From contig JANYKL010000162.1 in assembly GCA_025361625.1 (NCBI GenBank), forward strand, positions 1-35,583: a DNA stretch of 35,583 bases, read 5' to 3'. Position numbers and translations under genes: made by a program. Below, piece by piece: positions 18,790 through 34,163 of the stretch. The stretch comes from Acidobacteriaceae bacterium (lineage in GTDB: Bacteria; Acidobacteriota; Terriglobia; Terriglobales; Acidobacteriaceae). How positions within the stretch are numbered: the first letter of the stretch is position 1; each line of letters begins with the position of its first letter. The notes beneath the pieces are model-generated. The model made no database searches, was not told where the DNA came from, and saw only the letters and a list, made by a program, of their open reading frames with translations.

Positions 18790-20220
18790 CTACGCGGCCG
18801 ACCACATTCCCATGGCAGCGAGAATCGTGCTGGCGGCTTCGGCGCCGGAGCGGACGCAATCGGGAACGCCGATTCCGCTGTAGCCGTTGCCGGCGAGCGC
18901 GAGGCCCGGATGTTTCAGGCGCAGCTCTTCGATTCTGCGGATTCTTTCGAGATGGCCGACGGAATACTGTGCCATGGCGGAGCGCCATTTATAGACGCGG
19001 GTAAACAAGGGCTCGGCGCGGAGAGAGGGACCGAGAATTTGTTCGAGTTCATCGCGCACGATTTTGACGACTTCGTGTTCACCCTTTTGCAGGATCGGCT
19101 CATCGCGCGAACCGCCAAGGAAGCAGCGAATCAGAGCGCGGTCTGCGGGAGCGCGATGGGGAAATTTATTGTGAACAAACGTAGCGGCGAGCACGCGGCG
19201 GCCCTCGCTACGCGGCACGAGGAATCCAAAGCCGGGAGGAAGGGCGCGACGCACGGAGTCATTGTAGGCAAGAGCGACGGTCAGCGAGGATGAGTATTGA
19301 ATCTCGCGCAACTCCCGCGACAGAGCTTCGTCGGTTCCCTGCAGAACGAGGCCAGCCTCATAGGTTGGCGTGGCGAGAATCACGCCATCAAATTGATCGC
19401 TGTGGTATCCGGCAGAAACCGTCCAGCGATCGAGCTCGCGCGCGAGGAGTTCAACGGTCACCGACGTCTTGATGGAGCCGGGATCGAGGCTGGCGACGAG
19501 AACACTTATCAACTGCTGCATGCCGCCTTTTAGGGTGGTGAACAGGGGGCGGGGGGCGGGCGGAGGCGTGGTCGAAGAAATAGCAGCAGCTTGTTTGCGG
19601 GCGAAGGCCATGCCGCGGCCGAGGCTTCCCTGCTTCGCTTCCATGTCGGCAAAGCGCGGCAAGACGGCACGCAGGCTGAGCTCGGAGGCTTGGCCGCCGT
19701 AGACTCCGGAGAGCAAGGGATCGGCGAGCATCTCGACCATCTCTCGTCCGTAATGGCGTTCGACAAACTGGGCAACGGTCTCGTCGGCTGAGGATTCTCG
19801 CGGGGGGTGGAACCACTCCGCGGCCATGCGGATTTTCGTTTTAGCGGAAAAGAGCGGGGAGCGAATGGCGGGCATGATTTTCGTGGGAACCATGAACATC
19901 AGGCCGTCGGGCATTGCGACCAATTTATTTTTTGCGAGTATGTACGTCTTGCGCTGAGCGTCGTTTGATCCGATCAGTTGGTCGGCGAGCCCGAGTTTCG
20001 CGCAGAGCTCTGCGGCCCAGGGTTTTTCGGTGAGGAAAGAATCGGCTCCGGCTTCGACCAGGCAACCATCGACTTCTTCAGTCAAGAGAACGCCGCCGAG
20101 GCGCAGTCTGGACTCGAATAAAACATATTCGACGGGAGTGCCTGAACGCCGCTTCTCTTCAATGCTGTAGGCGGCCGAGAGGCCAGAAATTCCTCCGCCG
20201 ATGATGGCAATGCGTTTCAT
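18790..20220 (-). CDS. hemG: Protoporphyrinogen/coproporphyrinogen oxidase (HemG/HemY family)
   Basis: A 476-residue FAD enzyme that removes six electrons from the porphyrinogen ring late in haem synthesis. The FAD-binding GGGISGLSAAYS lies at residues 8-19. LRLGGVLLTEEVDGCLVEAG and a PDGLMFMVPTKIMP-like substrate loop follow. LLSGVYGGQASELSLRAVLP is a family landmark. The C-terminal GNGYSGIGVPDCVRSG completes the FAD site. Whether the substrate is protoporphyrinogen or coproporphyrinogen III cannot be read from the sequence. It follows hemH by 21 bp, so it is the third gene of a hemE-hemH-hemG operon. Length is normal and nothing is missing. Confidence 0.95.
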   Translation of the reverse strand: MKRIAIIGGGISGLSAAYSIEEKRRSGTPVEYVLFESRLRLGGVLLTEEVDGCLVEAGADSFLTEKPWAAELCAKLGLADQLIGSNDAQRKTYILAKNKLVAMPDGLMFMVPTKIMPAIRSPLFSAKTKIRMAAEWFHPPRESSADETVAQFVERHYGREMVEMLADPLLSGVYGGQASELSLRAVLPRFADMEAKQGSLGRGMAFARKQAAAISSTTPPPAPRPLFTTLKGGMQQLISVLVASLDPGSIKTSVTVELLARELDRWTVSAGYHSDQFDGVILATPTYEAGLVLQGTDEALSRELREIQYSSSLTVALAYNDSVRRALPPGFGFLVPRSEGRRVLAATFVHNKFPHRAPADRALIRCFLGGSRDEPILQKGEHEVVKIVRDELEQILGPSLRAEPLFTRVYKWRSAMAQYSVGHLERIRRIEELRLKHPGLALAGNGYSGIGVPDCVRSGAEAASTILAAMGMWSAA

Positions 20221-20241
20221 GAATACTTCCGCAGCCCGATT

Positions 20242-21297
20242 TTAGCGGCTCACGGCGATTGGCGGCTTGGCTTTATCCGCGAGCTTCGCGAGGTTCGCGA
20301 GGCGCACGCGTTTCGAGACCAATTCGGCGAGCGCGGCCGTCAAAATCGGGGAACCGTTGAGCGATTCGGCTCGCCAGAGTTTGATGCCTTCTGTCTTGGC
20401 GAATCCGGTAAAGGCTATATCGATATCGTAAAGAATTTCGACGTGATCACAAACAAACCCTACGGGCTGGATAAAAACTCCGCGGTGGCCTTTTGCCTTT
20501 AGATTCTTGATGGTGTCTTCGACGGTTGGGCCGATCCAGGCGCCTCCGGACATGCCCTGGCTTTGGAAGGCGAAGGTCCAGTCGTCATCGGAAAGGCCAA
20601 CCTGGTCAGAGAGGCCAACCGTTTTTGCGACCAATGCTGCGGTCTCTTTGGCCTGGCGCTGATAAGGATCGCCATCGGCGATGGTGCGCTCGGGAACGCT
20701 GTGGGCGGTGAAGATGACGGGAACGCGAGCGCCATTTTCGAGATTGGCCTTCTGCCATCCGGCGATGAAGCGCTCGGCGAAAGCCTTGATGAGGAGCGGC
20801 TCATCGTGCCACTCTTCGACGAAATCGACGAAATCCATTTTGAAGGGAGGAGGGGCCGCTGCGAGGACGGCACTCCGGTAGAGCCCGACGCTGGTGCGGG
20901 AGTTTTGCGGCGCTAGGCAGATGGCGATGACATTTTCATATTTGCCATCGACGATTGCTTTCACTGCGTCCTTTATAAAGGGCTTCCAGTTGCGCGTGCC
21001 TACGAACACGGGAAGGTTAATGGCCTGGGATAGTTGATGGGCTTGTAAAAGAGTCCAGCAGGCGAGCGGAGAAAAACCGATCAGCGAATAGCGATGCTGT
21101 ACTTCTTCGATTACCGAGGCGGGGATGGTTCGTCCTCCGGTGATGTAGTTCATGAATTCGGGAATCTGGGAGGGGTTTTCGGGACTGCCGTGGGCGAGCA
21201 GGAGCACGGCGGTTTTGGAAGCTGAATTTGGAGCAAACGAATTTTTATGGTTGGCGCAGTAACATTCGGCAGCGAGGGCGAGAGGACAGGTGGTCAT
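20242..21297 (-). CDS. hemH: Ferrochelatase
   Basis: A 351-residue enzyme that inserts Fe2+ (into protoporphyrin IX or coproporphyrin III). It starts after an unusual N-terminal extension with C4, C12 and C14 (CPLALAAECYC). The core begins TAVLLLAHGSPENP. The catalytic His is H199 in FTAHSVPE and the conserved Glu is E287 in GFVCDHVEILYDID. A small internal duplication VGLSDQVGLSDD is present near residue 228. The C-terminus is a simple basic tail (LANLAKLADKAK). Second gene of the haem operon, 21 bp after hemE. Confidence 0.95.
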   Translation of the reverse strand: MTTCPLALAAECYCANHKNSFAPNSASKTAVLLLAHGSPENPSQIPEFMNYITGGRTIPASVIEEVQHRYSLIGFSPLACWTLLQAHQLSQAINLPVFVGTRNWKPFIKDAVKAIVDGKYENVIAICLAPQNSRTSVGLYRSAVLAAAPPPFKMDFVDFVEEWHDEPLLIKAFAERFIAGWQKANLENGARVPVIFTAHSVPERTIADGDPYQRQAKETAALVAKTVGLSDQVGLSDDDWTFAFQSQGMSGGAWIGPTVEDTIKNLKAKGHRGVFIQPVGFVCDHVEILYDIDIAFTGFAKTEGIKLWRAESLNGSPILTAALAELVSKRVRLANLAKLADKAKPPIAVSR

Positions 21298-21318
21298 ATG
21301 CGTGGCTAACCTCGGCGC

Positions 21319-22431
21319 CTAAGGGCGGTCGGGTGATGATGTGTTCGGAGTTGCGTGCGATGCTGAACTCGAGGCTGCGTGCGATGCGGCGATTTCGGCG
21401 GAGTGGTCGCGCACGAAATGGCAGAGTGACTTCACATTCTCGACCGGAGTTTCGGGAAGAATGCCGTGGCCCAGATTAAAAATATGGCCCGGGCGTCCAG
21501 CGGCTTGCTTCAAAATCATTTCCGCCCGGGATTTGATTGCTTTCCAATCGGCGAAAAGCAGCGCGGGGTCGAGGTTCCCCTGCACCGCGCCTTTGAAGCC
21601 GAGCGTCTCCCAGCCTTTGTCGAGCGGGATTCTCCAATCGAGGCCGATCACTTCCGCGCCAGTTTCCTGCATGGAAGGGAGCAGAGTCGAACTGTCGGTT
21701 CCAAAATAAATGGTGGGGACGCGAGTTTTCTGCAACTGCTTCACGAGTTCGGTCACGTGGGGCAGCACATAGCAGCGATAATCTTCAACGCCGAGGCACC
21801 CGACCCAACTGTCGAAGATCTGGATGCAGTCGGCGCCGGCGCGTACTTGATCGGTGGAATACTCGGCGGTGACGGAGACGAGCTTGCGCATTAATTCGCT
21901 CCACGCGGCGGGGGCGGAGTACATCATCTTTTTTGTGAGGAGGTAATTGCGCGAGCTTCCGCCTTCGATCATGTAACTGGCTAGGGTGAATGGAGCGCCG
22001 CAGAAACCGATGATGGGCAGCTTATTGCCGAAGTGTTTGCTGACGAGTTTGACGGCTTCGGATACGTAGCCAAGGTCGGCGGCGCGATCGGTGCGGAGGG
22101 CCGAAACGTCTTCGGCGGTTCGCACGGGCCGGTCAATTTTTGGTCCTTCTCCGGCGGAAAAGTGAAAGGGCAGACCCATGACTTCGAGGGGGAGGAGAAG
22201 ATCGGCAAAAATAATTGCGCTGTCGACCTGCAGGATCTCGGCAGCTTCAATCGTGACCCGGGCGGCGATTTCGGGCTTTTTACAAATTTCGAGCAAGGAA
22301 TAATTCCTGCGAATCGCGCGGTACTCGGGCATGTAGCGGCCGGCCTGGCGCATGAACCAGACGGGAGTACGCTCGGCGGGTTGCGCTCTGGCGGTACGAA
22401 TGAAGAGAGAATCGGGGGCCGACATGAACAT
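21319..22431 (-). CDS. hemE: Uroporphyrinogen decarboxylase
   Basis: A 370-residue cytoplasmic enzyme that turns uroporphyrinogen III into coproporphyrinogen III by four decarboxylations. The signature PVWFMRQAGRYMPEYR is at about 23-38, and the catalytic Asp is D76 in IIFADLLLPLEVMGL. IPLDKGWETLGFKGAVQGNL and GHIFNLGHGILPETP lie near the C-terminus. The last 20 residues (ASSSASHATPNTSS) are low in complexity and unlike the family. The start is ATG 22431, or 22425 two codons later. First gene of the haem operon, divergent from the M28 peptidase gene with 136 bp between. Confidence 0.97.
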   Translation of the reverse strand: MFMSAPDSLFIRTARAQPAERTPVWFMRQAGRYMPEYRAIRRNYSLLEICKKPEIAARVTIEAAEILQVDSAIIFADLLLPLEVMGLPFHFSAGEGPKIDRPVRTAEDVSALRTDRAADLGYVSEAVKLVSKHFGNKLPIIGFCGAPFTLASYMIEGGSSRNYLLTKKMMYSAPAAWSELMRKLVSVTAEYSTDQVRAGADCIQIFDSWVGCLGVEDYRCYVLPHVTELVKQLQKTRVPTIYFGTDSSTLLPSMQETGAEVIGLDWRIPLDKGWETLGFKGAVQGNLDPALLFADWKAIKSRAEMILKQAAGRPGHIFNLGHGILPETPVENVKSLCHFVRDHSAEIAASHAASSSASHATPNTSSPDRP

Positions 22432-22567
22432 TTGATTTTACATGTTCCAGTGCGCTGGCTTGCTGGCGCATGCTTCGCGGGGGGTGTTTCTTTGAGCGTG
22501 TTTCTTTGAGCTGCCCAATTTGCGGCGTTTATTTGCCGCTATAATTGCAGCCTCCAAAAGGAGCTCC

Positions 22568-24880
22568 ATGCAATCCATCTTTACTACTGTTCCAGCTACT
22601 GCGAGTGCGAGAGTGTTGGCGTCGGCGTTGGCATTGTCGTTGTGTCTTCCCTCTTTAGTTTTCGGCGCGGATGCGGCGGCTACGGGGCCGGCGGCGCTTG
22701 TGGGGTACTCCCCGCGCAGCAGTCAAAGTGAGCGCGAGTGGGAGACGAAGCTTCGCGCCATACCTGATCCGGCGAATCTGCGGGAGTACATGAAGCGGTT
22801 GAGCGCGAGGCCGCACCATGTCGGGTCGGCGTATGACAAGGACAACGCGGAATGGATTCTGGCGCATTTCAAGGAGTGGGGACTGGACGCGCACATCGAG
22901 CAGTTTGACGTGCTTTTTCCGACTCCGAAGGTTCGCGTGCTTGAAATGCTGGAGCCGAAGAAGTTCACGGCAAAGCTGGAAGAGCCCGCGGTCGGGGTCG
23001 ATCCAACTTCGAATCAGAAGTCGGAACAGTTGCCGACCTACAACGCATATTCGATTGACGGCGACGTCACGGCTCCGCTGGTCTTCGTGAATTACGGATT
23101 GCCTGAAGACTATGAAAAGCTCGACCGGCTGGGCATTTCAGTGAAGGGCGCCATCGTCATCGCGAAATATCTGCACTCATGGCGAGGCATCAAGCCGAAG
23201 GTTGCGGCCGAGCATGGGGCGATCGGATGCCTGATTTATTCCGAGCCGCAAGACGACGGCTACTCGCGGGAGAACGTGTTTCCGCTGGGCCCGATGCGGC
23301 CTCCGGACGGCGTGCAACGCGGCAGCGTGATGGATTTTCCGTCGAGCAGTCCGGGCGACCCGCTGACGCCGGGAGTTGGCGCGACGAAGGATGCGAAGCG
23401 GCTTGCAATCAAAGAAGCGAAGAGCATCACGAAAATTCCGGTGCTGCCGATTTCTTATGCGGACGCGCAGCCGCTACTGGCGGCGCTTGCGGGGCCGATG
23501 GCTCCGGAAGAATGGCGCGGTTCGCTGCCGATTCCGTATCATGTCGGCCCGGGCCCGGCGAAAGTGCATTTGAAGGTTGCGTTCAACTGGGACACGAAGC
23601 CGGTGTATGACGTGATTGCGAAGATTCCGGGCAGCGTCGCTCCGGATGAATGGATCATTCGCGGCAATCATCATGATGGCTGGGTGAATGGAGCGGAAGA
23701 TCCGATCTCCGCGCAAGTTGCGCTGCTTGAAGAGGCGCGCGGGCTGGGACTGTTGCTGAAACAAGGATGGAAGCCGCGCCGGACGATTATTTATTGCGCG
23801 TGGGACGGCGAAGAACCGATGCTGCTTGGCTCGACCGAGTGGGTGGAAACTCACGCGGAGGAACTGGCTAAGCATGGCGCGGTCTATATCAATACGGACG
23901 GCACCGATCGCGGCGTTCTTACGATGACGGGATCCCATAGCCTTGAGCAGTTTGTGAATGGGGTGGCGCGCGACATTGAGGATCCGGAAACAAAGATGAC
24001 GGTGTGGCAGCGGGCACAGCTGGTCGCGATCTCGGGGGCTAAATCGGCGGAAGCGAAAAAAGAGATACGGCAGCGCGGAGACTTGCGGCTTGAAGCGCTC
24101 GGCTCGGGCACAGACTTCACGGCATTCATCGATCATATTGGGATTGCGACGATCGATCTTGGATACGGGGGTGAGGATGAGGGCGGCATCTATCACTCGA
24201 TCTACGACGATTTTTACTGGTACACGCATTTTTCGGACACAACTTTTGTATACGGCCGGGCGCTGGCGCAGACGGTAGGCACGTCGGTGATGCGGCTGGC
24301 CGACGCTGAAGTGCTTCCATTCGACTTCGTCGACTTTGCGGACACGGTCGAGATGTACATAAAGAATCTGCAGAAGTTGCTGGCCGACAAGCAGGATGAA
24401 ATTCGCGAGCGCAATCAGGAGTTGGACGAAGGCGTATTCAAGGCGACGTTTGATTCGAGGCGTCCGACGGTGGCGCCGCAGCGGGAAGAGGTTCCGATGC
24501 ACATGAATTTTGCGCCGATGCAGAATGCGCTCGATTCGCTTAACCGGAGCGCCAAGCATTACAAAGAGGCGTCGATGCATAAGCAGCCGACGCTTGACGA
24601 CGAAGCCTTCGCGGGGAAGCTTGCCGCGGTGAATCGATCGCTGATCGAAACCGAGCGGAGATTGACAAATCCGGAGGGATTGCCGCGGCGGGCCTGGTAT
24701 AAGCATTTGCTCTATGCTCCGGGGGTGTACACGGGCTACGGAGTGAAGACGGTGCCGGGGGTGCGAGAGGGCATTGAACAGAAGCGATATGCCGAAGCAG
24801 AGCAGGAGATCGTCCGCGTCGCGAAGGCGCTGGAAGACGATGCGCAGGTGATCGACGCGGCGGCGAAAGAGTTGGAGTGA
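22568..24880 (+). CDS. Secreted M28 peptidase, glutamate carboxypeptidase II-like (paralogue 1)
   Basis: A 770-residue exported zinc peptidase with the protease-PA-dimerisation layout of glutamate carboxypeptidase II and the transferrin receptor. The signal peptide is ASALALSLCLPSLVFGADA. A PA insert contains GAIVIAKYLHSWRGIKPKVA. Likely metal and catalytic residues are H368 (GNHHDGW), bridging D378 (AEDPIS), E415/E416 (WDGEEPM), D444 (INTDGTD) and H543 (YHSIYDDFYW). The usual DPSSG-like stretch is DPISA here. The C-terminal helical domain ends in a charged coil. ATG 22568 has AAGGAG about 5 nt upstream. An in-frame extension to 22520 is not needed. The substrate is unknown, probably peptides. 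Confidence 0.93.
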   Translation: MQSIFTTVPATASARVLASALALSLCLPSLVFGADAAATGPAALVGYSPRSSQSEREWETKLRAIPDPANLREYMKRLSARPHHVGSAYDKDNAEWILAHFKEWGLDAHIEQFDVLFPTPKVRVLEMLEPKKFTAKLEEPAVGVDPTSNQKSEQLPTYNAYSIDGDVTAPLVFVNYGLPEDYEKLDRLGISVKGAIVIAKYLHSWRGIKPKVAAEHGAIGCLIYSEPQDDGYSRENVFPLGPMRPPDGVQRGSVMDFPSSSPGDPLTPGVGATKDAKRLAIKEAKSITKIPVLPISYADAQPLLAALAGPMAPEEWRGSLPIPYHVGPGPAKVHLKVAFNWDTKPVYDVIAKIPGSVAPDEWIIRGNHHDGWVNGAEDPISAQVALLEEARGLGLLLKQGWKPRRTIIYCAWDGEEPMLLGSTEWVETHAEELAKHGAVYINTDGTDRGVLTMTGSHSLEQFVNGVARDIEDPETKMTVWQRAQLVAISGAKSAEAKKEIRQRGDLRLEALGSGTDFTAFIDHIGIATIDLGYGGEDEGGIYHSIYDDFYWYTHFSDTTFVYGRALAQTVGTSVMRLADAEVLPFDFVDFADTVEMYIKNLQKLLADKQDEIRERNQELDEGVFKATFDSRRPTVAPQREEVPMHMNFAPMQNALDSLNRSAKHYKEASMHKQPTLDDEAFAGKLAAVNRSLIETERRLTNPEGLPRRAWYKHLLYAPGVYTGYGVKTVPGVREGIEQKRYAEAEQEIVRVAKALEDDAQVIDAAAKELE

Positions 24881-25000: not shown

Positions 25001-25027
25001 CGTAGCAAGAGGACACAAGGAGATGGC

Positions 25028-25369
25028 ATGGCGGAAGCTCAGCGAATCACGGTGAATGAAGTCAAGAAACGAATGGATGCGAAAGAGAAATTCGTGTTCA
25101 TAGACACGCGAAATCCGCAGGCATGGGCGGAATCGGACACAATGTTGCCGGGAGCGATGCGATTCGACAAGGTCAAAGAGAAACTGCAGTCGATTCCGAA
25201 AGATAAACCTGTGGTCACTTACTGCACTTGACCGAACGAAGGATCAAGCGCCAGTCTGGCGCAAAAACTTCAAGAAAGCGGCTACACCGATGTGTGGGCA
25301 CTCAAGGGCGGATTCGATGCCTGGAATCAAGCCGGATTACCGGTTGAAAAACGCCGCGAAGGAGCGTGA
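25028..25369 (+). CDS. Single-domain rhodanese with in-frame TGA at the catalytic position (candidate selenoprotein)
   Basis: Read through the TGA at 25229-25231, this is a complete 113-residue rhodanese: VFIDTRNPQAWAESDTMLPG, then KPVVTYCT-(TGA)-PNEGSS, then VWALKGGFDAWNQAGLPVE, ending at TGA 25367-25369. Homologues with this loop, as I recall them, read YCxCPNE, so the TGA (codon 68) replaces the second Cys. By spacing to the following helix (13 residues to the L of AQKL, as in GlpE) that is the sulfur-accepting catalytic Cys. Stopping at the TGA would leave 67 residues with no active site. The frame stays intact after the TGA, and a stem-loop follows it. Sec decoding is the inference; a point mutation or sequencing error is the alternative. 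ATG 25028 follows AAGGAGATGGC. Confidence 0.75.
25238..25271 (+). promoter_or_regulatory. Candidate bacterial SECIS element
   Basis: Starting 16 nt after the TGA, GCGCCA (25248-25253) pairs with TGGCGC (25257-25262) around the loop GTC. A weaker lower stem, GAAG (25238-25241) with CTTC (25268-25271), closes an A-rich internal loop. The apical loop begins with G, 22 nt after the TGA, inside the 16-37 nt range described for bacterial SECIS. The top CAGTCTG resembles the CAGGTCTG of the E. coli fdhF element. The hairpin lies within coding sequence, as bacterial SECIS elements do. Confidence 0.55.
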
Positions 25370-31853: not shown

Positions 31854-34163
31854 TTAGGGCAACTTATTTTTCGAAACGGATGGCGGCTTGCTGGTCGCGC
31901 CTTCGAGTTGCGAGTTAATTTTGTCGAGTAACTGGGTATTGACGGCCAGCGCCCGCTGCAGTAACTGCGCTTGTTGACGGGCGGTCGCCCAATCCTTTTT
32001 CTCGACAGCTTCGGTTAGTCCAGGCAATTCGAGATGAGCGTAGGTGTAACGCGCTCCATAGAGCATGTGTTTGAACCATGGCCTGCCGGGGATGCCGTCG
32101 GGATTGAGCCAGTTTCGCTCCACCTGCATCATGCCGCGATTGAGCGCATTGGTTTGATCGGCAGAAAGAGAGCCGGCAGCGAGGGCTTGCCCGACGGTTT
32201 GATTCAGGCGATGGCCGGCGGCGGCGAACTGATCGATGGCTTGGAAAATGGGGTCGAGATGGAGTTGGCTGAGGTCGTTATTTTTATCGTTGTCTTTAGC
32301 TAAATCGTGAACGAAATCGCGAATGTTGCTGGCGTAATTTGCAAAATCGAAGGGTAATAAGTCAGCGTTCGCCAGGCGCAGAGCGAGCACTCCCCAGAGT
32401 TGCGACATCAGAGTGTGATAGCGATAGCCGGGATCGCCGAAATGATTCATCCAATAAAAATCGTCGTACATCGAATGGTAGACACCGTACGGGCCTTCGA
32501 AGCCTAAACCGATGACCGGCATGCCGACGAAGTTTAGGAAGACGGTATGGTCGGATCCGCTGCCGATACGAGTGTTGGCGAGGTTGTAGTCGGGGACTTC
32601 TTTGTTTGCTTCGTTGTTTGCATCGCTGGTTGCATCCCCGCTTGCTTCGTCGGTTGCATCTACGGCTGCTTTCTCTTCACTCTTCTTGCGCAGCGCAGAT
32701 TGCTTCCAGGCGTCATAAAGCGATTTGCCCGATGGATCCTGCAGAGAGCGGGTGGTGTCGACCAGCATGGGTGCGAGCGAAGCGACGGCGCTACCACTCA
32801 AATCAGGCCCGGATGCAGAGGAGTCGACATTGATGTAGGCCACAGCTTTCTTGCGCAGTTCGTCGGCAAACTGCTCTCCCCATTCGGTCGAGCCGGTGAG
32901 GCCGATTTCTTCGCCATCCCAACTGCAGATCACGAGCGTGCGCCGTGGTCGCACTCCACTTTTGAGAAGCTGGCCGAGGGCGCGCGTCATCTCCATCATG
33001 GAGGCGGTGCCACTGCTCGGATCGACGCCTCCGTACACCCATGCGTCGCGATGATTGCCCAAGACGACCCATTCGTCGGGCAACTTGGCTCCGCGAATGC
33101 GCGCCTCGGTGACGTAGTAAGGCCGGATCGAGTTATCCATCTCGATTTTCAAGTGGACGCGGGCCTGCTGTCCGCCAAGGTGATACTCAATCGGCAGACC
33201 GCCCTGCCAGTCTTGAGGCGCGATCTTGCCACCCATATTTTCAAGGAGCGGCTTTGCATCTTTCGCGGAAAGCGGAAGAGCCATGATTTTGGGGACCGAG
33301 AGAGCCTCACTCAGCGGAATCCGCTTGGCGCCCGGAACGCTTGCCCAACCCGGAGTCAAGGGGTCGCCGGGGACCATGAAGTCATACGTGATTGCGCCGC
33401 GCTGGATGTGGCTGTCGGGGCCCCAAGGTCCGTCGGGAACGGTTTTACCCTTCTTGTAACCGTCCTCCTGTGGATCGCTATAGATGAGAATTGCGGCGGC
33501 GCCCTCGCGTTCGGCGGTTAAGGCCTTGAATCCGCGATAGCTGTAAGGATTCGAGTAACGCACGAGAACGATTTTGCCCTTAACGTCGATTCCGTTCTTG
33601 CGCAAGAGGTCATAATCATCGGGATTGCCGCTGTGCGCATAGACAATCGGCGCCGTCACCTCGCCGGAGATCGACATTCCGGTCCAGGCTGAGCTTACGA
33701 GGGGATTTTTCGTGTCGGCATCGGCGTCGAACGACTCCTCGCGAAGCGAGGCTCGGTAAGAGATGGGGGCGACCATCTCTAGAAATGTGCTTTTTGGCTC
33801 GGTGCTGTAGACGTCGTAGCGGCGGACGATGACATCCTCGAGGCCCTGCTTACGCCACTCGTCCGCGATGTACTTTGCCAGATCGTTATTGCGCTTCGAA
33901 CCGGCAAGGTGGGGCTCGGCGGTGAATATGCGATGCTGCCGCTTCTCTTCTTCGGGGTTAGGGATGGCTTTGAACTGCTGTTCGATCTGGTTCTCGTGCG
34001 CCGCAGATGCGGACGTGAAACCCGAAATCGCGGTCGAGGTCTGAGCGCGTAATGCGGGAGCGTTTATTTGGGAGAGTAAGGCTTGGGTGAGCAAGACCTG
34101 GGTGAGTAAAGCTTGGGTGAGTAAGACGAGAAGGGAGGAAGGCAAACGACAGTTTTTTTTCAT
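31854..34163 (-). CDS. Secreted M28 peptidase, glutamate carboxypeptidase II-like (paralogue 2)
   Basis: A 769-residue exported zinc peptidase with PA insert and dimerisation domain. Likely ligands are H371 and bridging D381 (GNHRDAWVYGGVDPSSG), E418/E419 (WDGEEIG), D447 (INVDSS) and H563 (YHSMYDDFYW). All the canonical motifs are kept, including DPSSG, unlike paralogue 1. The signal peptide core is built from a five-residue repeat, LLTQA-LLTQV-LLTQA-LLSQI. Within the catalytic domain a 12-bp DNA repeat adds an Asp/Ala/Glu-rich insert before the SGSDHTVF segment. ATG at 34163 with MKKNCR. The substrate is unknown. The two paralogues are about 7 kb apart and in opposite directions. Confidence 0.93.
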   Translation of the reverse strand: MKKNCRLPSSLLVLLTQALLTQVLLTQALLSQINAPALRAQTSTAISGFTSASAAHENQIEQQFKAIPNPEEEKRQHRIFTAEPHLAGSKRNNDLAKYIADEWRKQGLEDVIVRRYDVYSTEPKSTFLEMVAPISYRASLREESFDADADTKNPLVSSAWTGMSISGEVTAPIVYAHSGNPDDYDLLRKNGIDVKGKIVLVRYSNPYSYRGFKALTAEREGAAAILIYSDPQEDGYKKGKTVPDGPWGPDSHIQRGAITYDFMVPGDPLTPGWASVPGAKRIPLSEALSVPKIMALPLSAKDAKPLLENMGGKIAPQDWQGGLPIEYHLGGQQARVHLKIEMDNSIRPYYVTEARIRGAKLPDEWVVLGNHRDAWVYGGVDPSSGTASMMEMTRALGQLLKSGVRPRRTLVICSWDGEEIGLTGSTEWGEQFADELRKKAVAYINVDSSASGPDLSGSAVASLAPMLVDTTRSLQDPSGKSLYDAWKQSALRKKSEEKAAVDATDEASGDATSDANNEANKEVPDYNLANTRIGSGSDHTVFLNFVGMPVIGLGFEGPYGVYHSMYDDFYWMNHFGDPGYRYHTLMSQLWGVLALRLANADLLPFDFANYASNIRDFVHDLAKDNDKNNDLSQLHLDPIFQAIDQFAAAGHRLNQTVGQALAAGSLSADQTNALNRGMMQVERNWLNPDGIPGRPWFKHMLYGARYTYAHLELPGLTEAVEKKDWATARQQAQLLQRALAVNTQLLDKINSQLEGATSKPPSVSKNKLP
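32604..32675. repeat. 12-bp tandem repeat, 6 units, in-frame
   Basis: GTTTGCTTCGTT (32604), GTTTGCATCGCT (32616), GGTTGCATCCCC (32628), GCTTGCTTCGTC (32640), GGTTGCATCTAC (32652) and GGCTGCTTTCTC (32664). On the minus strand they give tetrapeptides such as VDAT, DEAS, GDAT, SDAN and NEAN inside the M28 catalytic domain. Confidence 0.9.
34066..34125. repeat. 15-bp tandem repeat, 4 units, in the signal peptide
   Basis: ATTTGGGAGAGTAAG (34066), GCTTGGGTGAGCAAG (34081), ACCTGGGTGAGTAAA (34096), GCTTGGGTGAGTAAG (34111). On the minus strand they encode the hydrophobic core of the export signal (LLTQx units). Confidence 0.92.

Follow-up and report, generated by a model that had tools for sequence, protein, structure and literature searches.

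Selenoproteins built on the rhodanese domain have been predicted since 2005 (PMC1088965; PMC2398784), and a review from 2026 distinguishes, in the part of its text available to us, five such forms, of which form 3 is the CxU type represented by the model NF041203 (PMC13188914). Forms 1, 2 and 4 of that review, which were predicted in the two earlier papers, share with the protein described here a rhodanese domain with selenocysteine (Sec); their motifs are given in the same part of the text as UxxS, UxxG and UxxG, and CxU is not listed for them there. A further relative, the rhodanese/DsbD fusion-like selenoprotein TsoB (NF045694), is described, so far as the source is available, as having two Sec residues in a UxxxxU motif. 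For the Acidobacteria, a table in PMC1794560 gives three selenoprotein families with four proteins, and PMC12013277 reports a genome with three selenoproteins; both statements are taken from the accessible portions of those papers. A literature search on NF041203, LYCAU and rhodanese selenoproteins returned, beyond PMC13188914, an algal selenoproteome study, the remaining hits being unrelated. The idea of a rhodanese selenoprotein is thus not new, since CxU forms are already catalogued under NF041203 in the available part of that review.

The window analysed here is a stretch of 35,583 nucleotides from an Acidobacteriaceae bacterium (assembly GCA_025361625.1, contig JANYKL010000162.1), and it contains a gene whose predicted product falls close to this catalogued type. 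Its best NCBIfam match is NF041203 (rhodanese_LYCAU, 'rhodanese-related (seleno)protein'), with which it has in common the rhodanese domain and the CxU motif, here YCTU; the score is 110.3 bits, under the cut-off of 115. The same model matches all 27 orthologues scanned (of 31) at E 0.001, and in a sample of the phylum it matches 67 of 396 genomes at E 1e-20, one of them over the cut-off. Because the cut-off is missed so narrowly, we describe the branch as a close sister of NF041203. TsoB stands much further off: its rhodanese part matches the window protein weakly (30.8 bits, cut-off 805), and its two Sec residues, its motif and its fused domain are all unlike the window protein. We conclude that the window gene represents a new, well-supported branch of a known selenoprotein type and involves no new principle. 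A single odd stop codon leads in this way to a selenoprotein branch that 30 of the 398 genomes sampled from one family possess, in a gene that ordinary annotation would probably end at the UGA.

The UGA codon and its hairpin

The first-pass annotation had claimed that a rhodanese frame is broken by one TGA only, that the domain continues cleanly past it and that a SECIS hairpin follows, and in each of these respects the locus bears it out (Table 1). From its ATG to its final TGA the frame has a single internal TGA, at codon 68, in the context YCT-U-PNEGSS, and is otherwise open. When this codon is read through, the protein contains a full rhodanese domain (PF00581, residues 8-101), scoring 58.6 bits against a curated cut-off of 22.2 (E 9.4e-16).

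Table 1. Positions of the features of the rhodanese locus, numbered from the first nucleotide of the window.
Feature	Position	Strand	Description
Probable ribosome-binding site	25017..25022	+	AAGGAG, 5 nt 5' of the ATG; read off the sequence
Predicted rhodanese-like selenoprotein gene	25028..25369	+	113 residues + stop; codon 68 is UGA (probable Sec)
In-frame UGA	25229..25231	+	Probable Sec68 of the CxU motif (Cys66-Thr67-Sec68)
Predicted bacterial SECIS hairpin	25248..25262	+	6-bp stem GCGCCA (25248-25253)/UGGCGC (25257-25262), 3-nt loop GUC (25254-25256)
True stop codon	25367..25369	+	UGA; orthologues have UAA, UAG or UGA here

Among the places listed for the 398 genomes sampled from the same family, the best 31, a set that includes the window and whose border was drawn by hand between E 4.8e-25 and 1.7e-23, each have exactly one UGA, always at the same codon, and all 31 read YCT-UGA-P. 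They come from 30 genomes and 12 genera, in a sample in which many assemblies are fragmentary. Below the border lie mostly longer frames, which are DedA fusions where inspected; both UGA and Cys occur among them. A separate pattern scan of named genomes yielded one weak ordinary rhodanese; its patterns carried Cys and were blind to UGA copies.

The hairpin begins 16 nt after the UGA, and its loop, of which the first base is G, lies 22 nt after it. The rules for bacterial SECIS elements, as set out in the available part of PMC13188914, specify a loop of 3-9 nt, an upper stem of 4-16 bp, a G in the first two loop positions and a loop placed 16-37 nt from the UGA; the window hairpin (6 bp, GUC, 22 nt) satisfies them. 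Folding of the window sequence alone gives z -1.58 for 62 nt, a level reached by 17 of 200 shuffles, and z -2.61 for 45 nt, reached by 2 of 200. The gene and its surroundings, 901 bases in all, gave no Rfam match at E 10, a result that depends on the SECIS families that Rfam holds. The single-sequence fold is only modestly above chance, and the comparative evidence is much stronger.

That evidence comes in the first place from synonymous codon usage. Codons +6 to +10 after the UGA encode Ser-Ala-Ser-Leu-Ala and lie within the hairpin; among copies with the majority residue they read AGC (31 of 31), GCC (30 of 30), AGT (31 of 31), TTG (29 of 31) and GCG (28 of 28). Across these hairpin codons pS falls to 0.038; upstream of the UGA it is 0.760, over codons +1 to +5 it is 0.698 and downstream of the hairpin 0.739. 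RNAalifold, run unguided on 86 distinct Sec sequences, recovers four pairs of the stem at -5.63, compared with -0.32 ± 0.68 (minimum -3.44, n = 200) when columns are shuffled. Within these 86 sequences a C-G pair is changed to U-A in 8 and a G-C pair to A-U in 1; three sequences have G-U, and one has a C-U mismatch. The A-U case (L079) has Ala replaced by Thr on one side of the stem and by Val on the other, the pair being held while two residues change. A locus from another family of the phylum (L103) contains two UGA rhodanese genes within 3.3 kb, and in its hairpin U-A replaces C-G.

A wider set, which adds DedA fusions and phylum-wide relatives to the standalone genes, has UGA at this codon in 87 copies and Cys in 35, so that the interchange between Cys and TGA that had been suggested as a check on codon 68 is indeed found. 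Six ordinary rhodaneses with neither a CxU nor a CxC motif (L026, L035, L039, L044, L046 and L048) stand outside this count; L110, a duplicate of L140, and a spurious second frame of L060 were dropped from the Sec rows, and L020 was included. The core of the stem, five pairs, is complete in 79 of the 87 Sec copies compared with 2 of the 35 Cys copies (Fisher p 7e-20, a figure that overstates the certainty because the rows are mutually related and not independent), and at least one of the five Watson-Crick pairs is missing in the other 8 Sec copies. A tree, used for Sec/Cys labels and placements only because its assignment of rows to DedA fusions followed a crude length rule, requires at least nine changes between Sec and Cys, a number that is approximate because this is a quick tree from few columns in which 19 of 118 inner branches are starred. 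In it Sec copies alone make up a group of 30 standalone rows, with support 92 where the tool's own mark is 95. With a hairpin that is strongly conserved, and often lost in the Cys versions, the family lends itself well, as a natural test case, to asking how SECIS elements evolve and what Sec contributes to a rhodanese.

The genome from which the window comes (3.83 Mb in 196 contigs, 95.7% complete) also encodes the decoding apparatus that the first-pass annotation had named as something to look for. SelA (421 bits), SelB (361 bits), SelD (355 bits) and tRNA-Sec are all present over their curated cut-offs. The tRNA-Sec is the one match over the Rfam cut-off (71.4 bits against 47), with 14 further tRNA-like matches below it, and ARAGORN likewise reports a tRNA-SeC with anticodon tca. 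Of 14 control genomes, 5 have a tRNA-Sec over the Rfam cut-off and 2 have SelB over its own. Judged by its gene content, the organism should be able to decode UGA as Sec. Across the family, SelA is matched at E 1e-30 in 28 of the 30 genomes with the UGA rhodanese, where 183 of all 398 genomes have it (Fisher p 1.6e-8, to be read with the same reserve). Either SelA or SelB is present in 29 of the 30: one genome (G202) has SelB with no SelA match, and another (G095, 68% complete) is the only one that shows neither SelA nor a SelB over the cut-off. SelD is often itself a selenoprotein, and the SelD frame of the window's genome (G000:C59:3081-4031, L055) has one in-frame UGA at the corresponding place, in AAGUASK, so that SelD too looks like a selenoprotein.

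On this comparative evidence we consider it very probable (about 0.95) that the UGA at codon 68 is read as selenocysteine. SelB, bound to the hairpin 16 nt past the UGA, would deliver Sec-tRNA-Sec to the ribosome, and translation would continue to the real stop codon 135 nt beyond the UGA. The product would be a single-domain rhodanese-like selenoprotein with a Cys66-x-Sec68 pair in its active-site loop.

Register and chemistry of the active-site loop

In rhodaneses a single catalytic Cys opens an active-site loop of six residues. In the window protein this loop exceeds that of ordinary rhodaneses by two residues and contains both Cys66 and Sec68, and a Cys stands two residues before the Sec in all 87 Sec copies. 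The earlier claim that the TGA lies exactly at the catalytic cysteine is too firm as worded. Sec would lie within the active-site loop, but the motif reads Cys66-Thr-Sec68, and of three alignments two place Cys66, not Sec68, at the canonical site.

An AlphaFold2 model was built from an alignment of 27 of the 31 orthologues; the other four (L020, L065, L071 and L084) are absent from the protein alignment because the script found no suitable ATG for them. The model has a pLDDT of 82.6, and the loop is only fairly confident, with block means of about 81. Its best solved matches are rhodaneses, among them the thiosulfate sulfurtransferase GlpE (PDB 1gmx), at TM 0.74/0.78. GlpE has the same fold as the window protein (VIA Z 14.3, rmsd 2.7 over 105 residues), but its loop is two residues shorter, with one Cys there and no Sec.

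How the two residues share the work depends on the register, and the evidence on this divides. In selenoenzymes the attack is usually made by Sec, and if Sec68 were here the nucleophile for sulfane sulfur, with Cys66 only a resolving partner, the protein would be a true seleno-rhodanese. The alignment to PDB 6mxv, which is gapless in the loop, sets Sec68 opposite the Cys of that structure, and in the predicted structures the helix that follows ends 15 residues after Sec68, just as it ends 15 residues after Cys85 of the genome's own ordinary paralogue. Cys66 is nevertheless placed at the canonical position both by the phmmer alignment to GlpE and by the profile alignment (hhalign) to that paralogue, and the predicted strand ends at residue 65, directly before Cys66, as it does at residue 84, directly before the paralogue's Cys85. 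The predicted start of the helix is 3 residues after Cys66, compared with 4 after Cys85. Weighing these observations, we would put the assignment of the nucleophile to Sec68 only a little short of an even chance.

A further departure from the classical activity would be that the protein acts as a thiol peroxidase or disulfide reductase on a rhodanese fold and not as a sulfurtransferase. The invariant Cys at position -2, unlike the arrangement in ordinary single-Cys rhodaneses, points in this direction, as does the view, found in the available part of PMC9312934, that many predicted bacterial selenoproteins are redox enzymes. Gene context, which might have pointed to a substrate, gives no such help: within flanks of at most 1.5 kb no neighbouring gene is common to more than 3 of the 31 copies, so that no function can be assigned to the rhodanese from an operon, and none of the neighbours in the window has a match. 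We regard this alternative as rather unlikely. By eye, the surroundings in the window (18790-22431, - strand; 22520-24880, + strand; 31854-34163, - strand) comprise what we take to be a heme-synthesis run (hemE, hemH and a hemG-like gene) and two related large genes for M28-type peptidases flanking the rhodanese region.

In either register, the invariant Cys-x-Sec pair of the proposed selenoprotein suggests a selenenyl sulfide step. Most likely, one of Cys66 and Sec68 would take up either a sulfane sulfur or an oxidant of the peroxide type, which its partner would resolve; a Cys66-Sec68 selenenyl sulfide would then form, to be recycled by thioredoxin or a similar reductant. Redox-pair chemistry of this kind, suggested by the conservation of the motif, seems to us about as probable as its converse.

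Selection beyond the UGA and other readings of the codon

The coding sequence behaves alike on the two sides of the UGA. Over 30 orthologues, compared without gaps and with the frame-broken copy L020 excluded, pN/pS comes to 0.34 for the 22 codons that precede the UGA and to 0.30 for codons +11 to +35; two of the copies are partly out of register in this comparison, L068 through a one-residue gap after the hairpin and L084 through an insertion before the UGA. In the 41 codons past the UGA these 30 copies have no in-frame stop, against 11 and 27 stops in the other two frames. By these measures, purifying selection carries on downstream of the UGA.

These results bear on two explanations that dispense with Sec. 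The first is that UGA stands for another amino acid, Trp or Cys, because the codon is reassigned throughout the genome or is generally read through; an in-frame UGA does occur in at least three of the genome's genes (the rhodanese, a DedA fusion and SelD), but UGA also terminates the rhodanese gene itself and, among 11 other window genes examined, the one just upstream, the codon interchanges with Cys codons and not with Trp, SelA accompanies the UGA copies and most Cys copies have lost the hairpin, all of which makes this reading extremely improbable. We give equally little credence to the idea that the gene is a pseudogene, truncated or in decay, or that the assembly is wrong here, so that the UGA would be a nonsense mutation and 67 residues would be made, since, for all that one relative (L020) has a frame broken after the hairpin, the UGA is shared by all 31 best places in 30 assemblies and 12 genera, and the constraint and absence of further stops just described extend past it.

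Decay among relatives, which the first-pass annotation had named as something that would count against the gene, is thus not general, being confined to that single copy among the 31. The copy itself (G003:C17:26782-27530) is a UGA rhodanese whose frame breaks soon after the hairpin, and a second, weak UGA rhodanese match lies just upstream of it.

A DedA-fused form

The window's genome contains a second selenoprotein candidate, of 323 residues, at G000:C191:13303-13650 (L050:922-1890, + strand). It is a fusion of a VTT (DedA) domain with a C-terminal rhodanese that carries the same YCTU motif. Its hairpin has the stem of the standalone gene and a loop reading CGGGU; the region folds no better than its shuffles (z 0.46). 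Within the genus, a match containing UGA, in a frame some 290-375 codons long, occurs in 23 of 24 genomes; the motif was read in 16 of them, and Cys forms occur elsewhere. Among the upper matches listed for the family, SelA is present in all 23 genomes with a UGA fusion, compared with 10 of 34 with the Cys form.

Fusions of DedA and rhodanese domains are known as such, according to the available part of PMC10127716. A literature search combining DedA, rhodanese and selenoprotein found no report among its best matches, and DedA is mentioned in neither PMC13188914 nor PMC12013277. We put forward, tentatively and with more doubt than conviction, the broader idea that CxU rhodaneses across the phylum, both standalone and fused to DedA (VTT), may carry Sec two residues past the canonical nucleophile, which would turn a sulfurtransferase into a Cys-Sec redox relay, and that the membrane form may be an unreported selenoprotein architecture. 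If this were true, the membrane-bound fusion in the window's genome would tie selenium to lipid-carrier or membrane transport.

The two Cys copies that retain an intact stem (L024 and L114) are both fusions. In the tree L024 groups with the Sec copy L152 (support 99), and L114 with the Sec copies L136 and L138 (support 86); the loop of L024 has no G. The intact stems, the Sec-copy neighbours in the tree and the L024 loop without G together make it likely that both are recent changes from Sec to Cys that have kept relic hairpins.
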